A model generated the notes under the pieces. It did no database searches and was not told the origin of the DNA. It worked only from the letters and a program-made list of their open reading frames with translations. From Fluviicola sp. (lineage in GTDB: Bacteria > Bacteroidota > Bacteroidia > Flavobacteriales_D > Crocinitomicaceae), in assembly GCF_039596395.1 (NCBI RefSeq), contig NZ_JBCNJT010000003.1, forward strand, positions 372,001 to 436,000: 64,000 bases of DNA, written 5' to 3'. Positions 5,495 to 64,000 of this stretch are shown here, piece by piece (the stretch's first letter is position 1; each line of letters starts with the position of its first letter). The translations under genes were made by a program, and so were the position numbers.

Positions 5495-6102
5495 AATTAG
5501 GACACGTTATTGCAGCAGGTTTAGTGCTTGGATTGACAACTTTTGCTTGTTCAGATAAAAAAGAAGACCCGAAAACAAAGGAAGAAAAAGCTCCTGAAGT
5601 TCCGGTAGTTAATTCCAAAGGGTTGAAGATTGCGTTCTATTATTCCGATAGTTTGAAAAGCGGCTTTACGTACTACAAGAACGAAGATGCGCGTATCACC
5701 AAGAAAGGCGAGGCTTTCCAGAACGAAATGATGGCAAAGCAGCGTGCATTGGAGCAAAAAGCACAGAACTACGAAAAATACATGCGTGAAGGTACGATGA
5801 CCGGAGCGGACATGCAGAACCTGGAAAACGAGATCATGCGTATGCGTGAGCAATTGTTGAACCAGCAGCAAACGAGAGGAGCCCAGTTGGAAAAAGAAAC
5901 CAACGAGGCTTTGACGGTGCTTTCCAAAAAGATCGAAGTAGCAGGGAAGAAGTACTGCGAAAAATACGGAATTGACGTGCTTTTGATCCATGGCCAGGGT
6001 GGACAAATCAATTTCATCAATGAGAAAATGAATGTGACACAATCATTCGTTGATTTCCTGAACCACGAACAAGAAATGATGGACAAAGACCTGGGCAAAT
6101 AA
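5491..6102 (+). CDS. OmpH/Skp-like periplasmic chaperone lipoprotein
   Basis: A 203-residue protein with a lipobox-like leader (LTTFAC, Cys 20), an acidic/Lys linker, a beta strand LKIAFYYSDSL (about 46-56), a long charged coiled coil (about 70-165) and a closing strand YGIDVLLIHGQGGQINFIN. That strand-hairpin-strand plan is the OmpH/Skp fold: trimeric holdases that escort unfolded outer-membrane proteins. It differs from classic Skp in being lipidated. It overlaps the upstream 81-aa gene by 4 nt and is 3 nt before the DUF4924 gene. Confidence 0.8.
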   Translation: MKLGHVIAAGLVLGLTTFACSDKKEDPKTKEEKAPEVPVVNSKGLKIAFYYSDSLKSGFTYYKNEDARITKKGEAFQNEMMAKQRALEQKAQNYEKYMREGTMTGADMQNLENEIMRMREQLLNQQQTRGAQLEKETNEALTVLSKKIEVAGKKYCEKYGIDVLLIHGQGGQINFINEKMNVTQSFVDFLNHEQEMMDKDLGK

Positions 6103-6105
6103 ATT

Positions 6106-6657
6106 ATGCTGATAGCACAACAAAAACTTAGGGAGAACGTCGCGGAATATATCCTGTACATGTACCAGATCGAAGATCTGATCCGTGCATACCAGTTTGA
6201 CCTGGACCGTATCATGAAGGAGGTTGTGGAACCGAATCTTCCTGATCGCGCTTATCTGGAGCGTTACAGGGCGTGGTACGCAGGTTTGATCCAGGATATG
6301 AAATCGGAGCGCATCATTGAATCCGGGCACCGCCTGGAACTACAGGATGTGATGGTGGAATTGTCGTACCTGCACAATTCTTTGCTGACGGTAGTAAACG
6401 ATGAGAAATACCGGACGCTTTATTCCACGGCGCTTCCTTTTATCGAAGATTTTATTGAGCATTCCAACCTGAAAGGCATGAACCACCTGGAAGTGTGTTT
6501 CCATGCTTTGTATATGAAATTGCTTTTGAAGCTGCAGAAAAAAGAAATCAGCCAGGAAACGGAAGAGGCCTTTGATGCGATGCGCATTTTACTTGCTTAT
6601 TTGACGCGTTCTTACCACCAGATGAAAGGCGGGGAAGGGCAGTATTGGAATAATTAA
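6106..6657 (+). CDS. DUF4924 family protein
   Basis: A 183-residue, all-helical, cytosolic protein beginning MLIAQQKLRENVAEYILYMY, the recognisable start of the Bacteroidota DUF4924 family. Motifs such as EDLIRAYQFDLDRI (25-38) and the C-terminal LLAYLTRSYHQMK fit. Function unknown. It is the last gene of the 81-aa/OmpH-like/DUF4924 operon (3-nt gap) and is followed by a terminator-like hairpin at 6704-6733. Confidence 0.8.
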   Translation: MLIAQQKLRENVAEYILYMYQIEDLIRAYQFDLDRIMKEVVEPNLPDRAYLERYRAWYAGLIQDMKSERIIESGHRLELQDVMVELSYLHNSLLTVVNDEKYRTLYSTALPFIEDFIEHSNLKGMNHLEVCFHALYMKLLLKLQKKEISQETEEAFDAMRILLAYLTRSYHQMKGGEGQYWNN

Positions 6658-58388: not shown

Positions 58389-60917
58389 TTACCTGATCAC
58401 CGTCACGAATCCATTGTATCGGGTTTTGTGCCCGTTGTTATCTGAGATAATAAAAACATACGTGTAAACTCCATCCTGTACCATCATTCCGTCCTGGGTT
58501 CTTCCGTCCCATTTCAGGTCGTTTTCGTGGAATTCCTTGATGGTATTTCCCCATCTGTTCAGGATGAAACCTTCCACCAGGTAACCTCCCATGATACTTA
58601 CCGAGAAGAAGTCATTGATGTTGTCATTATTCGGCGTGAACACGTTCGGGATGAAAACCGCATAGTCTTCAATGCTGCAATCCTCAAATACGATTTGAGT
58701 AGTATGGGTTGTCGGACAACCGTTTGCATCTGTAATGTTGATCACTACATTGTCTGATTCATAGTACCAGGTTCCTTCAACGATGACAGAATCTCCCTCA
58801 CAACGCGTAATGTTATTGGAACTCGGAGTGACAGTGAATACCGAAAGATTCAACGTATGTGTACTATCGCAGCCGTTTTGTCCGGTAAATACAAAGGGGT
58901 AGGAACCTGCGTTCGTAAAAGTTTGTCCGTTGAAGGTGTAAGAATCGCCCGGACAGATACTGTGCGATTCACTGGTTGTTTGAGGAGTACATCCTGTTAC
59001 TACGATACTTTTGCAATCCTGGTCGGAACATCCGCCGTTTCCTACCGTATAGCAAATCTGGTATGTTCCTGCTCCGGCAGAAGCAGGATTGAACACTCCG
59101 GAAGCTGAAATACACGTTCCGCAATTTGCTGTCCATGTTCCTCCGGGAGTTGTTGCGGTAAATTGAACAGGAGCGTCTGTGGTAGCGAAAGGACCTGTTG
59201 TAATAATGGTTGCATCGGGGGCAGCCGGGCCGGCTCCTACGGTTCCGGAAGCATTTCCGGTACAACCATTCTGGTCGGTTACAGTTACCGAGTAAGTTCC
59301 GGGACATTTATTCGAAATATTCGCAAAAGTGCTGTTGTCAGACCATAAATAGGAGTAAGGCGTTGCTCCTCCCGAAGCGCTTCCCGTTAATCCGCCGTCG
59401 CATGCACCTGCACACGTTTCATTGGAAGAAGTGATTGTTACGTTCAAGCCTGCTCCGGCACTAACTGTTGCCTGTGCAGAACCTGTACAACCGTTTTGGT
59501 CGGTTACAGTAACGGAATAATTATTCGGGCATAAATTGGAAATAATTGCTGTGGTAGCCGGGTTTCCGGTCCAGGAATAGCTGTAGGGAGCCGATCCGCC
59601 GGTTACTGTTGTTGAAACAGAACCGTTGCATGCATTCGTACACGTTTCGTTCACCGCACCTGCTGTTACATTTAAAGCTGTTCCTGCTGCAACTGTTGCC
59701 TGTGCAGAACCTGTACAACCATTCTGGTCTGTTACGGTAACGGAATAATTGTTCGGGCATAAATTGGAAATGGTTGCTGTTGTAGCCGGGTTTCCTGTCC
59801 AGGAATAACTGTATGGAGCCGATCCGCCGGTAACTGTTGCAGAGACTGAACCGTTGCATGCACCCGGACAGGTTTCATTTACAGCAGTTGCAGTAACATT
59901 GATAGTTGCGCCACCGGAAGAAGTTACGGTAGCTTGTGCAGTTGTCGAACATCCTCCTGCATCTGTTACGGTCACCGTATAAGTTCCTGCACATTGGGAG
60001 GAAAGGTTTGCTGTTGTAGCTCCGCTTCCTGTCCAGGAATAGCTGTATGGAGCCGTTCCGCCTGTAACAGTAGTTGTAACAGTTCCGGTGCAAGTTGGCC
60101 CGCAACCTGTAGGTGTTGCTGTTGCAGTGGCTTGCAATCCGTTGGTAATTCCACATTGCGGATTCATAGAAGCGATCCATGCACTGTTTGCGGTGTTATT
60201 CGCGGCTCCGGGAGTTTCATTCGTTCCCACATTTCCGGAAGTCCAGTTTGCCTGAAGTGAGGGATTGTTATTGGTGTTATTGGTCATGGAGAATACTTTT
60301 CCGGACGCTCCTCCGGAAAAATAAATAATCGCATTGGTGCTGTTGTTTCCGTAGCTTACAGCGTGAGAAGGGGAAGCAGCACTGATGCTCGTCATAATCA
60401 GGAAAGAATCCCCTGAATTTGACATAGCAACCTGGTTCCACGTACCTGCGCCTGCAAACCAGCCAGTCGTCGGGTAAGCCGTGTTTCCTGCTGCCGGACT
60501 GATGCTTTGTCCTTCCAACAAGTTGGAATTTACCGGGATAATCAACCGGCAGTTTCCGTCCGACATACTTAAATCATCCGGTGGAATAGCCGTATTGCGG
60601 TCATTGTCGTTGTACACCACAATCATAGTTCCCTGTGGAATACAGCTCCAAAATGCATTATTGGCAAAACGTACCGCACCTTGTGCAATCCCTGTTCCGC
60701 TTCCTGCCGCAAAATACCCGTTATTGTCATCCAGGACAACTCCTCTCAAATCCATGCAAGGTGTTGGAGTCTGACAGCTTGGAGTTCCGATAACCAGTAA
60801 TTCTACATATTCGGCAGAACCGGTTCCCTGGGAAACTTCATTGATGATTAGTTGTTGTGAGTAGGATTGAAATGAAATAATTCCTAATAGTGGAATAAGT
60901 ACGCTGAGAAAACGCAT
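58389..60917 (-). CDS. Type B T9SS surface protein with SprB-like repeats
   Basis: The start at 60917 (MRFLSVLIPLLGIISFQ) gives a signal peptide. The 842-residue product begins with a lamin-tail-like domain (LIINEVSQGTGSAEYVELLVIG), then about five SprB-type repeats of around 76 residues (VTGGSAPYSYSWTGNPATTA, CTGSAQATV), a Gly/Thr/Pro-rich region, and a gliding-motility type B C-terminal domain (IPNVFTPNNDNINDFF, DGMMVQDGVYTYVF). Exported by the T9SS and attached to the surface, probably an adhesin. Two of the repeats (59467-59694 and 59695-59922) are close copies at the DNA level. Confidence 0.85.
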   Translation of the reverse strand: MRFLSVLIPLLGIISFQSYSQQLIINEVSQGTGSAEYVELLVIGTPSCQTPTPCMDLRGVVLDDNNGYFAAGSGTGIAQGAVRFANNAFWSCIPQGTMIVVYNDNDRNTAIPPDDLSMSDGNCRLIIPVNSNLLEGQSISPAAGNTAYPTTGWFAGAGTWNQVAMSNSGDSFLIMTSISAASPSHAVSYGNNSTNAIIYFSGGASGKVFSMTNNTNNNPSLQANWTSGNVGTNETPGAANNTANSAWIASMNPQCGITNGLQATATATPTGCGPTCTGTVTTTVTGGTAPYSYSWTGSGATTANLSSQCAGTYTVTVTDAGGCSTTAQATVTSSGGATINVTATAVNETCPGACNGSVSATVTGGSAPYSYSWTGNPATTATISNLCPNNYSVTVTDQNGCTGSAQATVAAGTALNVTAGAVNETCTNACNGSVSTTVTGGSAPYSYSWTGNPATTAIISNLCPNNYSVTVTDQNGCTGSAQATVSAGAGLNVTITSSNETCAGACDGGLTGSASGGATPYSYLWSDNSTFANISNKCPGTYSVTVTDQNGCTGNASGTVGAGPAAPDATIITTGPFATTDAPVQFTATTPGGTWTANCGTCISASGVFNPASAGAGTYQICYTVGNGGCSDQDCKSIVVTGCTPQTTSESHSICPGDSYTFNGQTFTNAGSYPFVFTGQNGCDSTHTLNLSVFTVTPSSNNITRCEGDSVIVEGTWYYESDNVVINITDANGCPTTHTTQIVFEDCSIEDYAVFIPNVFTPNNDNINDFFSVSIMGGYLVEGFILNRWGNTIKEFHENDLKWDGRTQDGMMVQDGVYTYVFIISDNNGHKTRYNGFVTVIR
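59467..59922. repeat. Two tandem 228-nt SprB repeat copies
   Basis: Units 59467-59694 and 59695-59922 (76 codons each) share most bases, including a common GTTGCCTGTGCAGAACCTGT start. More diverged units lie on either side (about 59230-59466 and 59923-60110). Confidence 0.8.
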
Positions 60918-61001
60918 TTTTGACCGTAAATAAACTCTAATTGAACCTGGTTTCAGCAACGGATCTTGTGCCTCAAGGATTACAAGTTCAATTTTTCACC
61001 G

Positions 61002-61113: not shown

Positions 61114-61629
61114 ATGAAATCGCTTTTGTTATTCCTATTATTTTTCGGATTTTATTCCTTTGTTAGTGGCCAGGAAATCGTGGAGCTAAAAGGAGAGGTG
61201 GATTTTCCGTGGATAAACAGATTCAGTGCCTACGGTTTACCTGAGGATCAGGCTGAAAAAGAACTTGCAGGGTATGAGCATGCTTACAAAAAAGCACAGC
61301 GAAAGAACCGGTTGACAGATGAATTGCGCCTGTATGCGTTGTTGAAGGAAAACAACCAGTTGTATGCGCCCTATGTATCTATCCGGAATGACCAGGAAAA
61401 ACCACTGGTGATTTACATGGATTCTGCTTCCTATAAGAAGACCGGTGTCTGGAATTATAACGAAGAGGATTTGACACGAAAACAACAGTTTTTGTTCTTC
61501 GAGGCAAAAGGCTACCCGATTGGCGAGAACGCTTACCTGCTCACGGAATTCATTCAAATCAGGGAAGTAACGGACCCTTTCCGTTCGAAAGCACTTTCCA
61601 AATTTGCCATGGATGTTTACCGGAAATAA
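61114..61629 (+). CDS. Hypothetical secreted protein (171 aa)
   Basis: A 171-residue protein with a signal peptide (FYSFVSGQE) and a helical-plus-beta body without a recognised domain (YEHAYKKAQRKNRLTDELRL, a basic helix; GVWNYNEEDLTRKQQFLFFEAKGY). It precedes the sigma factor by 57 nt in the same direction, with no clear promoter in the gap. It may or may not belong to the metal module. Confidence 0.6.
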   Translation: MKSLLLFLLFFGFYSFVSGQEIVELKGEVDFPWINRFSAYGLPEDQAEKELAGYEHAYKKAQRKNRLTDELRLYALLKENNQLYAPYVSIRNDQEKPLVIYMDSASYKKTGVWNYNEEDLTRKQQFLFFEAKGYPIGENAYLLTEFIQIREVTDPFRSKALSKFAMDVYRK

Positions 61630-61686
61630 ATCCGGGCAATTAAACTTTTAGTATCATTATGCTTCTTAAGGACTACTGGAACATAA

Positions 61687-62190
61687 ATGACACTCGAACT
61701 ACTGTATGAAAAATATGCCAAACAGGTTTATAACCTGGCATTGCAGTATGTTCAAAATTCAAACGATGCCGAAGAAATCACACAGGATGTTTTCCTGGCG
61801 GCTTATAAATCATTGGATAAATTCCGGAATGAAGCCAATCACAGTACCTGGCTTTACCGGATTACCATCAATAAATCACTGGATTTCCTGAAAGCAAAAA
61901 AACGGAAGAAACGCTTCTTTTGGTTTACGAGCGAACTGACCGAAAATGATTCCGTTGAATTCAATCACCCGGGAGTTTTAATCGAGAACAAGGAGGAAAC
62001 AGCATTCATTTTTTCGTGTATCAATGAACTTCCGGATAATCAAAAAACTGCTTTAATCCTGAATAAAATAGAGCAGCTTCCATTGGCTGAAATAGCAGTG
62101 ATTATGGAGCTTACACCGAAGGCTGTAGAATCTTTGGTGCAGCGGGCAAAAACAAATCTTTCAAAAAAAATAACGGACAGCGAGGGTTAA
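61687..62190 (+). CDS. ECF RNA polymerase sigma factor
   Basis: A 167-residue ECF sigma-70 factor. Region 2: LELLYEKYAKQVYNLALQYVQ, NDAEEITQDVFLAAYKSLDKFR (-10 recognition, about 27-48) and HSTWLYRITINKSLDFLKA. Region 4: ELPDNQKTALILNKIEQLPLAEIAVIMELTPKAVESLVQRAKT (helix-turn-helix, about 122-164). No extra domains. The 89-residue transmembrane protein follows by 22 nt and the Spy-like protein after it, the same order and sizes as the CnrH-CnrY-CnrX group. Confidence 0.9.
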   Translation: MTLELLYEKYAKQVYNLALQYVQNSNDAEEITQDVFLAAYKSLDKFRNEANHSTWLYRITINKSLDFLKAKKRKKRFFWFTSELTENDSVEFNHPGVLIENKEETAFIFSCINELPDNQKTALILNKIEQLPLAEIAVIMELTPKAVESLVQRAKTNLSKKITDSEG

Positions 62191-62212
62191 CCTTCAAAAT
62201 GTCGTCTAAAAA

Positions 62213-62482
62213 ATGAACAGCATGAAAAAAGATTCATTACATATCCTGGAAAAAATAGAAGCGGCAGAAGTTTCGCCCTTCCTTTTTACGCGTATCCAGG
62301 CGAAAGTGCAGGAACAATTGCTCGAAAAGCTTTCAACGAAGCAGACAGTGATTTACCTGGCGGGAATTGCAATGATCATCACTTTGAACATCCTGGTGCT
62401 GGGGGCAAAAAGTTCCTCCGAAACCGATGCGAATCTGGTTTCAGAAATGAATTTGACACCTTCCAATCAATTGTACCCATGA
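62213..62482 (+). CDS. Short single-TM protein, candidate anti-sigma factor
   Basis: An 89-residue protein (a second in-frame ATG at 62222 would give 86): a cytoplasmic N-terminal region of about 45 residues with EAAEVSPFLFTRIQAKVQEQ, one transmembrane helix (about 45-65), and a short periplasmic tail. Small proteins of this shape follow ECF sigma genes throughout Bacteroidota and resemble CnrY in layout. I infer anti-sigma function from position and shape, not from sequence homology. Its stop overlaps the next start (ATGA). Confidence 0.6.
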   Translation: MNSMKKDSLHILEKIEAAEVSPFLFTRIQAKVQEQLLEKLSTKQTVIYLAGIAMIITLNILVLGAKSSSETDANLVSEMNLTPSNQLYP

Positions 62483-62913
62483 AAAAGTCAGTGATCAGGA
62501 ACGGATTCATAGTCGTATTGCTGCTAAGTAATGCTTTGTTCATTTACAAATGGTGGATGGCTCCGGAGAGAAGGCATCACGGGCCCCGGAATGAAATTAT
62601 CGAAAGATTACACTTCGATGAGAAGCAGGTAGCCGAATACGATGTGTTGATACAAGGCCACAGAAGTGCAATTGAAAACGCTCAAAAAGAATTGCAGCAG
62701 CAAAAACAAAAACTCTACGCAAACCTGGATGAACCTTTTTCAGATAGTTTATTGCAGGAAATTTTGAAGGTGGAAGCAAAGATCGAGCATATTCATTTCA
62801 ATCATTTCAAAGACATACAGAAGTTGTGCAGGCCGGATCAGAAAAAACAGTTTAAAGCCCTGAACCGGGAAATTGCTCACTTGTTTTCACCCGGAAAAAG
62901 ACCTCGTCCTTGA
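62479..62913 (+). CDS. Membrane-anchored Spy/CnrX-like periplasmic protein
   Basis: A 144-residue protein: one N-terminal helix (about 8-27), then a periplasmic helical hairpin region with His-rich stretches, APERRHHGPRNEIIERLHFDEKQ, IEHIHFNHFKDIQKLC and EIAHLF. This is the plan of Spy/CpxP and CnrX (heavy-metal sensor) proteins, which bind metal or unfolded protein. His clusters and the location after a sigma/anti-sigma pair suggest a metal sensor. Its start overlaps the upstream gene (ATGA), and its stop overlaps the MbnP start (TTGA). Confidence 0.65.
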   Translation: MKKSVIRNGFIVVLLLSNALFIYKWWMAPERRHHGPRNEIIERLHFDEKQVAEYDVLIQGHRSAIENAQKELQQQKQKLYANLDEPFSDSLLQEILKVEAKIEHIHFNHFKDIQKLCRPDQKKQFKALNREIAHLFSPGKRPRP

Positions 62914-63578
62914 TTAAAATTGCCACATATTGCCTGTTCCTGGTACCACTTTTCGGGTGGGGACAATTGACCGTGGACATAAGCCTGAAATGTGAGAATC
63001 AGGCCATCGGTTTAAATACTCCTGTTCAATCAGACGCTTATTCTTTCCAGCTGGAGCAGGCACGGTTTTACCTGTCGAAATTTGAGTTTTATCATAACGG
63101 ACAGCTGACATTCCGGGATCCGGTTCCGGCTTATTTGGTGGATTTTGAAATTGATTCGACACGAAAATTGGTTTTTCCGGGTATAGCTGCCTTTGAAGTG
63201 GACGAAATCCGTTTTTTATTCGGAATAGATAGCGCTACAAATACTTCAGGTGCTATGGCCGGAGCATTGGACCCGATGCACGGCATGTACTGGAGTTGGC
63301 AAAGCGGTTATATCAACTGCAAACTGGAAGGAACGTTCTTAACGCCGGAAAAAGAAGCATTTCAGTTGCATCTCGGTGGGTACGCTCATCCATTTTTCGG
63401 TGCACAGCAAATTGTATTGAAAACAGATTCCGGGAAAACCCCGCAAATAACTATCGACCTGAATTTCCTGTTGGAGCGTGTTATAAGCGGCAAAACAGAA
63501 CGACAAGTAATGTCGCCGGGTTCCCGGGCTGTTGAATATGCCCGATTGCTGGCTAAATCCATTGACCTGAAACGATGA
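62910..63578 (+). CDS. MbnP-like copper-associated protein
   Basis: TTG start overlapping the previous stop (TTGA), with a signal peptide (CLFLVPLFGWGQ). The 222-residue product matches the MbnP family: LEQARFYLSKFEFYHNGQ (about 49-66) and LDPMHGMYWSWQSGYINCKLEG (about 110-131), with the two Trp of the WSW segment. In methanobactin operons MbnH oxidises a Trp in MbnP to kynurenine, forming a copper site; orphan MbnP/MbnH pairs are common in other bacteria. The di-heme protein starts at its stop (ATGA). Confidence 0.8.
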   Translation: MIKIATYCLFLVPLFGWGQLTVDISLKCENQAIGLNTPVQSDAYSFQLEQARFYLSKFEFYHNGQLTFRDPVPAYLVDFEIDSTRKLVFPGIAAFEVDEIRFLFGIDSATNTSGAMAGALDPMHGMYWSWQSGYINCKLEGTFLTPEKEAFQLHLGGYAHPFFGAQQIVLKTDSGKTPQITIDLNFLLERVISGKTERQVMSPGSRAVEYARLLAKSIDLKR

Positions 63579-64000
63579 AAAAGGTTGAACTGGTTTGCCT
63601 GCTGGTCATTTTACTGACAATTTCTTTTCGTTATACGGAAAGACTTTGGAAAACACCTGCGCATTGGCCTGAACCGGTCTATAATTTCAAAAAGAATCCC
63701 CTGGATTCTGCAACCGTGCAATTAGGCAGGGTTCTTTTCTACGATCCGGTTTTGTCTTCAGACAGTTCGGTTTCCTGCGCAAGTTGTCATTCTCCCTACA
63801 ATGCATTCACACACGCAGATCACGCATTGAGCCATGGAATCAAAGACCGCATCGGAACACGGAATTCCCCGGTTTTGGTGAATTTGGCCTGGGGAAAAAC
63901 GTTTATGTGGGACGGAGCGGTCAATCATCTCGATATGCAGGCACTTGCTCCTTTGGAAAACCACCTGGAAATGGATGAAACCTTGCCGAATGTGCTTCAA
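63575..64000 (+). CDS. MauG/MbnH-like di-heme cytochrome c peroxidase family protein (3' end outside window)
   Basis: Begins MKKVELVCLLVILLTISF with an N-terminal signal anchor, overlapping the MbnP stop by 4 nt. The 142 visible residues show the first heme site SCASCH (about 67-72) within VSCASCHSPYNAFTHADHAL, then GTRNSPVLVNLAWGKTFMWDGAV and the conserved NHLEMDETLP, all hallmarks of MauG/cytochrome c peroxidases. Beside MbnP the best guess is MbnH, which uses high-valent di-heme iron to oxidise a Trp in MbnP. The second heme site lies beyond the window edge. Confidence 0.88.
   Translation, partial: MKKVELVCLLVILLTISFRYTERLWKTPAHWPEPVYNFKKNPLDSATVQLGRVLFYDPVLSSDSSVSCASCHSPYNAFTHADHALSHGIKDRIGTRNSPVLVNLAWGKTFMWDGAVNHLDMQALAPLENHLEMDETLPNVLQ

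Follow-up and report, generated by a model that had tools for sequence, protein, structure and literature searches.

The 64,000-nucleotide stretch of a Fluviicola sp. genome analyzed here (the window; positions 372001-436000 of contig C3, NZ_JBCNJT010000003.1, of a 4.6-Mb genome) ends in a five-gene module in which a putative regulatory switch of the CnrYXH type precedes an MbnP/MbnH pair. We favor, with moderate confidence, a reading in which a membrane-anchored CnrYXH-type switch built on an extracytoplasmic function (ECF) sigma factor controls a promoter-defined regulon, and MbnH builds a copper site on MbnP. The least certain parts of this reading are that the switch would respond to a metal in the periplasm, copper being the likeliest, and that its outputs would be secreted metal-handling proteins. 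Promoter sequences make it very probable that this switch activates the operon in which it is encoded and, in relatives, a small surface regulon as well.

All five open reading frames lie on the forward strand, and their coordinates and junctions agreed with those of the initial annotation. The first gene (61687-62190) encodes an ECF sigma factor of 167 aa, proposed to have a CnrH-like role, in which both regions 2 and 4 are present (Pfam Sigma70_r2, E 8.5e-19; Sigma70_r4_2, E 4e-13). It is followed after 22 nt by a gene for a small protein proposed to act like CnrY (62213-62482), by a membrane-anchored, periplasmic helical sensor of 144 aa with a CnrX-like predicted fold (62479-62913; ATGA junction), by an MbnP-family secreted protein of 222 aa with a TTG start and a WxW motif (62910-63578; TTGA junction), and by an MbnH/MauG-family di-heme enzyme (63575-64000; ATGA junction), which runs off the window edge. 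The complete enzyme of 339 aa was read at 5576-6595 of the extended record L002, whose positions convert to window coordinates by the addition of 57999. The small protein had been annotated as an 89-aa protein with a single transmembrane segment. That reading frame is present, but a start at ATG 62222, giving 86 aa, appears likelier, because the -10 box upstream ends at 62209 and the relatives in the genus start 13-14 nt after their -10 boxes. The protein has an N-terminal 'PPFLxTRI' motif that is conserved in relatives and one transmembrane segment, identified by eye, and matched no Pfam family, with a single chance-level match (E 0.12). Its size and topology fit the CnrY-type (class II) anti-sigma factors, with sigma binding being putative, and by analogy we regard it as a probable anti-sigma factor. 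Together with a sensor model whose first fold match is CnrX and a sigma factor 28% identical to CnrH, this small single-pass protein of CnrY size bears out the CnrYXH-like anatomy proposed initially.

MbnH oxidizes a Trp of MbnP to kynurenine and thereby creates a copper-binding site. The MbnP of the module was recognized by PF20243 at 117.7 bits (cut-off 27), with the TIGR04052 equivalog model scoring 36.4 bits, below its cut-off of 140. Four residues, W128, W130, K138 and H154, were invariant in 28/28 relatives, and both Trp residues were also present in 56/56 module loci, so that the Trp position on which the initial annotation depended is retained, with W128 and W130 both being candidates for the oxidized residue. 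The search for a second heme site to the right of the window was successful, as the complete MbnH carries CXXCH at residues 68-72 and 213-217, and across the 56 loci the first site was kept in 56/56 and the second in 55-56/56. Its CCP_MauG match was E 3.6e-31 for the fragment within the window and E 4.7e-56 for the complete protein, and TIGR04039 scored 210 bits, below the cut-off of 362.85. Its relatives of solved structure include the 'Di-heme enzyme' 6e1c (E 1e-36), which we take to be MbnH of Methylosinus. A second MbnP-MbnH pair of a more distant subtype occurs elsewhere in the genome (L145, contig C5, 7759-9608, minus strand), without an adjoining sigma module or yhyh gene.

The five-gene order was anticipated to recur in other Bacteroidota, and it does. 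The MbnP family is nearly universal in the host's own order (238/245 genomes), and its presence alone therefore says little; window-type MbnP was found in 109/245 of these genomes at E 1e-15. We compared an order set of 81 loci, made up of the window locus, the second MbnP of the same genome and 79 fetched neighborhoods of the better matches; these matches reached down to about E 1e-18 and chiefly had the short type of MbnP, lower matches and longer paralogues mostly being left out. When gaps of at most 400 nt on the upstream side and 700 nt on the downstream side were allowed, sigma factor, sensor, MbnP and MbnH were contiguous in 56/81 loci, 50 of which had a recognized anti-sigma-like gene and 44 a yhyh gene; in one of the 56 (L082) the sigma, anti-sigma-like and sensor genes come after mbnP-mbnH-yhyh, and in another (L101) a further mbnP-mbnH pair stands in front. 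In a named set, comprising the best 80 of at least 584 confirmed loci, of which at least 8 probably repeat order-set records, sigma factor and sensor were contiguous with MbnP in 29/80, mostly with a small membrane protein and yhyh, and 29 of the other 51 were plain mbnP-mbnH-yhyh units. The titles of the 29 module loci read Fluviicola, Chryseobacterium formosus, Sediminibacterium, Saprospiraceae, Sphingobacteriales, and Ignavibacteria and Candidatus Kapaibacterium metagenome-assembled genomes, a kind of record whose titles can be wrong. Cultured names include Fluviicola chungangensis MAH-3 (L197) and Chryseobacterium formosus CCTCC AB2015118 (L269); around yhyh the latter has extra MbnH-like open frames, in the order mbnp, mbnh, mbnh, yhyh, mbnh. 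No relatives of the window MbnP were found among the viral contigs and plasmids searched.

An ECF-type promoter, GAGGGTTA-N12-TCGTCTAA, lies at 62182-62209 on the forward strand, overlapping the 3' end of the sigma gene and preceding the anti-sigma-like gene, and relatives have it in the same place. The window form can be written GAGGGTTA/GAAGGAT-N12-TCGTCTAA, and the named set shares it as GAAGGAT(A)-N12-TCGTCTAA before the anti-sigma-like gene, with the same spacing as the form of a sister lineage, GCAAGTTT-N12-CATCTAA. The sister form was found upstream of the sigma genes of the order: starting from a seed chosen by eye, 29/51 non-redundant upstreams reached 12 bits, whereas 20 Markov-random sets, each retrained with the same seed, had 7.2 such upstreams on average and 14 at most. 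The matrix, trained on sigma upstreams only (31/58 matching in this training source), was then applied elsewhere, within 60 nt and at 12 bits or more. Matches preceded the anti-sigma-like genes of sigma loci in 22/51 (order set) and 16/28 (named set) cases, and yhyh in 29/48 and 11/29; at sigma-less loci the yhyh figures were 1/14 and 6/46. At sigma loci there were none before mbnH or the sensor gene (for each, 0/57 in the order set and 0/29 in the named set; sensor genes lacking a sigma gene, 1/3) and none before mbnP (0/57, 0/29; sigma-less loci, 2/22 and 3/49), and 2/595 and 2/528 before other open reading frames, these being mechanical frames of at least 150 aa and not all genes. The Fluviicola genome has a second promoter copy at 66032-66059, upstream of the second yhyh gene at a distance of 8 or 20 nt, depending on which start that gene uses.

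Genome-wide scans were performed with a strict pattern, GARGGWW-N13-TCGTCWAA, drawn after the sites of the window and its relatives had been seen, in genomes chosen largely for carrying the module (31 for the strict form, 48 for the sister form). The strict pattern gave 27 sites in the 31 genomes, compared with 3 for its reversed control; 22 were assigned, i.e., nine to the anti-sigma-like gene, eight to yhyh, one to sigma, three to CotH and one to VTC. In the Fluviicola genome there were exactly two strict sites, both in the module operon, and none in the reversed control. For the sister form with at most one mismatch, 35 of 51 sites were assigned (sigma 12, yhyh 14, CotH 7, VTC 2), 14 were left unassigned, and two lay outside the sequence fetched. 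The exact sites, 13 in number, without exception stood before sigma (6), yhyh (5) or CotH (2). The three target proteins scanned with Pfam all had CotH and lamin-tail domains, with a type IX secretion system (T9SS) tail above cut-off in two and just under it in the third; VTC was confirmed in two targets, one of which is followed by DUF4956. In two genomes (G041, G046) sigma-anti-sensor-yhyh and mbnP-mbnH-yhyh are separate units, and the promoter is present on both. A quick tree was built from 79 sigma proteins, of which 25 had the first promoter type, 29 had the second, and the remaining 25, without a clear type, were left out of the count. Promoter type changed once on it, compared with a shuffled mean of 18 and 0/500 shuffles as low, although some of its branches are long and tests of this kind are inflated by close relatives. 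A single change of type is what would be expected if this sigma factor reads this promoter. These promoter statistics support the self-induction claimed initially, with the difference that the promoter lies between the sigma and anti-sigma-like genes and not before the sigma gene.

Downstream of MbnH, a divergent YHYH protein follows after 2 nt and a second YHYH protein after 178 nt, both with PF14240 and a T9SS tail. His residues at positions 181, 188, 190 and 223 were invariant in 38/38 YHYH proteins, which suggests a metal site. The YHYH model had a mean predicted local distance difference test score (pLDDT) of 76.6, and its six PDB matches at E 0.001 or below were T9SS tails and Ig-like DUF3244 domains over about 80-90 columns; these were taken to cover the tail, and a function drawn from the fold was rejected. 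The first YHYH protein (L002:6598-7890, window coordinates 64597-65889) lacks a segment and a number of single residues that most of the other YHYH proteins retain, and in the relative L108/L198 a divergent copy similar to it is the only yhyh.

The same targets could belong to a surface or matrix programme of adhesion or extracellular matrix, in which the oxidized Trp made by MbnH would serve the cross-linking or maturation of exported proteins, with metal handling not being the purpose. The T9SS-tailed CotH, the YHYH proteins, and VTC with DUF4956 among the targets in relatives fit such a programme, as does the description of cotH, polyphosphate polymerase and DUF4956 travelling together with Gram-positive Pel polysaccharide loci (PMC7112168). 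In the Bacteroidota relatives, likewise, CotH and VTC(-DUF4956) genes share one promoter type; they differ from the Pel set in having T9SS tails and in being linked by the promoter to an ECF switch with MbnP/MbnH. Against a surface programme, CorA and MopE, functional relatives of MbnP, are described as copper proteins (PMC3912023), the sensor has the fold of a metal sensor, and the strict promoter of the Fluviicola genome is limited to the module operon. On balance we consider it unlikely.

The third protein of the module had been described as a membrane-anchored, His-rich, Spy-like protein. The anchor and a weak match to Pfam LTXXQ (Spy/CpxP; E 0.0037, 18.4 bits, below the cut-off of 24.3) stood up to analysis, but 'His-rich' was an overstatement: across relatives one His (H61) and one Cys (C117) are conserved. 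H61 was kept in 31/32 (set A3), 38/38 (set A2) and 55/56 module loci, and C117 in 32/32, 37/38 and 53/56, these sets overlapping. Structure prediction with AlphaFold, as had been proposed initially, gave a model with a mean pLDDT of 88.7 and a predicted template modelling score of 0.66, consisting of a transmembrane helix (residues 2-27) and four further helices. In a Foldseek search of the PDB, CnrX ranked first and accounted for 13 of the top 15 matches, with a probability of 1.00 and a TM-score by target of 0.63-0.76 (0.74 at rank 1); NccX ranked 10, a VirG-like protein 14, ZraP 26 and CpxP 48. By sequence, the best PDB match was the VirG-like 5ihf (E 0.0044).

Two other readings of the signal bear on this protein. 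In the first, the same switch would respond to periplasmic oxidant or thiol stress, with the lone conserved Cys as a redox switch and the peroxide-using MbnH consuming oxidant while it modifies MbnP. The conservation of C117, the lack of it at H109 and the membership of MbnH in the cytochrome c peroxidase/MauG family are in keeping with this proposal; however, the sensor's fold is matched best by two metal sensors, CnrX and NccX, the conservation of H61 equals that of C117, and the assigned promoter targets include no antioxidant gene, and we regard oxidant sensing as rather improbable. In the second, which we consider very unlikely, the protein would detect misfolded proteins in the manner of a chaperone, and not a ligand, in a Spy/CpxP-like envelope-stress feedback, as its weak matches to LTXXQ and to Spy (3oeo, E 0.023) would allow, but ZraP and CpxP come after CnrX and NccX in the fold ranking, Spy is absent from the 50 fold matches shown, the sensor is membrane anchored like CnrX, and there are no proteases or chaperones among the assigned targets.

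Several observations weigh against the CnrYXH-type, metal-sensing reading favored here. The sigma factor's likeness to CnrH is not specific, with other ECF sigma factors scoring higher in the PDB search. The anti-sigma-like protein, although matching CnrY in size and topology, had no detectable sequence similarity to it; this is weak evidence, as RseA and CnrY are themselves about 3% identical (PMC7406223). The best Foldseek E-value to CnrX was 0.016, the others being higher, and a profile alignment of the sensor with CnrX of pMOL28 (hhalign, 127 columns) had an E-value of 7e-4 with a low probability of 26%. Metal ligands of CnrX include H42, H46, E63 and H119. A further ligand described for CnrX is M123 (PMC7689651). 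In the profile alignment H109 of the sensor falls on H119 and I113 on M123, and the positions of H42, H46, E63 and M123 hold other residues in the window sensor, leaving H119 as the only ligand matched. The position of E63 is Ile in the window and Glu in 14/38 A2 relatives, and H109 itself, kept in 29/32 A3 sequences, is present in only 30/56 loci, with Tyr, Phe or Gln in 26/56. With the CnrX ligands mostly not kept while H61 and C117 are conserved, the fold appears CnrX-like and the site not that of CnrX. Among the promoter data, the matrix matched only 3/28 sigma upstreams of the named set, the sister form was at a noisy level (51 sites against 34 reversed), and the re-finding of known strict sites is by construction, what is new being that no additional copies turned up and that sites precede CotH and VTC. 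No copper-export or efflux gene occurred among the assigned targets (22/27 strict and 35/51 sister-form sites). Finally, the module was not contiguous at 25/81 and 51/80 MbnP loci, some of them at contig ends.

In CnrYXH the sigma factor is described as sequestered and released by a periplasmic ligand (PMC4803752, PMC7689651). By the same anatomy, the 86-89-aa protein would hold the sigma factor at the inner membrane, and the CnrX-like protein would read a periplasmic signal, whereupon the anti-sigma-like protein would let go of the sigma factor. The freed sigma factor would recognize the two-block promoter and raise the anti-sigma-like protein, the sensor, MbnP and MbnH, and through the second promoter copy the T9SS-exported YHYH protein, and in relatives also the CotH and VTC-DUF4956 genes. 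As the promoter is placed after the sigma gene, activation would increase anti-sigma and sensor together with the effectors, i.e., a negative feedback. MbnH would then oxidize a Trp of MbnP to form the copper-binding site, as known for the family. Two parts of this scheme are the least certain: that the switch responds to a metal in the periplasm, perceived at the conserved His/Cys, with copper the likeliest on the basis of family knowledge, and that the outputs may form a secreted metal-handling layer. A bolder version, which we put forward only tentatively, is a phylum-wide copper switch in which the new His/Cys site of the CnrX-fold sensor would bind periplasmic Cu(I) and free the sigma factor. 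The outputs would make up a secreted copper-handling layer, with the kynurenine site made on MbnP by its enzyme and the four-His surface YHYH protein exported by the T9SS; relatives would add a CotH kinase, likewise secreted, and polyphosphate synthesis to serve as a metal sink.

The nickel-sensing CnrYXH system of Cupriavidus metallidurans pMOL28 similarly combines an ECF sigma factor, a small single-pass anti-sigma factor and a membrane-anchored helical periplasmic sensor, and its sigma factor is described as driving its own regulatory genes and effectors (PMC4803752). It differs in gene order (Y-X-H, compared with sigma-anti-sensor in the window) and in effectors, which are a resistance-nodulation-division (RND) efflux pump and not MbnP/MbnH/YHYH. 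A 123-nt gene beside cnrYXH on pMOL28 (L338:12905-13027) is annotated 'YHYH domain-containing'; it is far shorter than PF14240 and probably unrelated, an odd coincidence. In Methylosinus, methanobactin operons that can hold mbnP/mbnH include the ECF sigma gene mbnI together with mbnR, but MbnI/MbnR is a FecI/FecR-like pair thought to signal via a TonB-dependent transporter (PMC3621798), whereas the window operon is without a FecR-like protein, transporter or methanobactin gene and has a CnrX-like sensor. The CorA-CorB and MopE-SACCP pairs of methanotrophs are described as a copper protein with a Trp-derived kynurenine and a co-transcribed di-heme peroxidase-like protein (PMC3912023), and the account in PMC3621798 finds MbnP not markedly similar to CorA/MopE in sequence. 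CorA-CorB is made at low copper, and the passages on these proteins in PMC3912023 name no CnrYXH-like switch. An ECF sigma factor in operons that can hold MbnP/MbnH is already known in the FecI/FecR type of Methylosinus. In agreement with the initial annotation, which knew of no such combination, no account of this operon, of a CnrYXH-like switch with MbnP/MbnH or of a regulon with YHYH, CotH and VTC-DUF4956 was found in the open-access literature among the matches listed, a scope that leaves out most subscription journals.

Upstream of the sigma gene, a conserved element (61641-61670, forward strand; TAAACTTTTRGTATCATTnnnnCTCTTAAG) is shared by relatives in the genus with the same module type. 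The full pattern had one site in the Fluviicola genome at up to three mismatches, and its reversed control none. A shorter pattern gave four exact sites in four of five genus genomes, each at a sigma locus, and at one mismatch 14 sites against 71 reversed. The element is possibly another promoter or an operator for the sigma gene. As the sigma factor's own promoter in the genus (TAAACTTTT...TCTTAAG) it was rejected, its letters being unlike the regulon motif although its spacing is alike, and it is treated here as a conserved element in its own right. The protein encoded at 61114-61629 (171 aa), which begins with a signal-like segment and belongs to no family, lies 57 nt upstream of the sigma gene and recurs there in two relatives in the genus (3/81 order-set loci including the window). 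In an 856-aa minus-strand protein (58389-60959), SYSWTG-like segments are repeated and the C-terminal end looks, by eye, like that of T9SS cargo.

Beyond the second yhyh, a divergent gene resembles a short-chain dehydrogenase. Further copper genes had been anticipated to the right, but inspection by eye of the open reading frames listed there (100 aa or longer, as far as L002:14000) showed no known copper gene. Flanking sulfatase-like and thioredoxin-like genes (both by eye) and one more family were not included in the module, being found by query search at only 7, 8 and 3 of 161 loci; for the sulfatase-like group, single-linkage clustering had given 28 loci and the stricter count was used. 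CotH lay near MbnP in 9/161 loci, two being repeats of the same records. As a target in the Fluviicola genome CotH is not claimed, none of its five matches there having a strict promoter copy.

Taken together, the module would link MbnP/MbnH, beyond the methanotrophs, with a dedicated periplasmic signal and with the surface families YHYH and CotH with VTC-DUF4956. Only 6% of the ECF sigma factors of Bacteroidota are reported to have a class I anti-sigma factor nearby (PMC7406223), and the module suggests an anti-sigma type for this phylum. From the promoter, the regulon of this ECF family can be predicted in each genome separately, and the presence of the module in named strains makes its signal and purpose directly testable.

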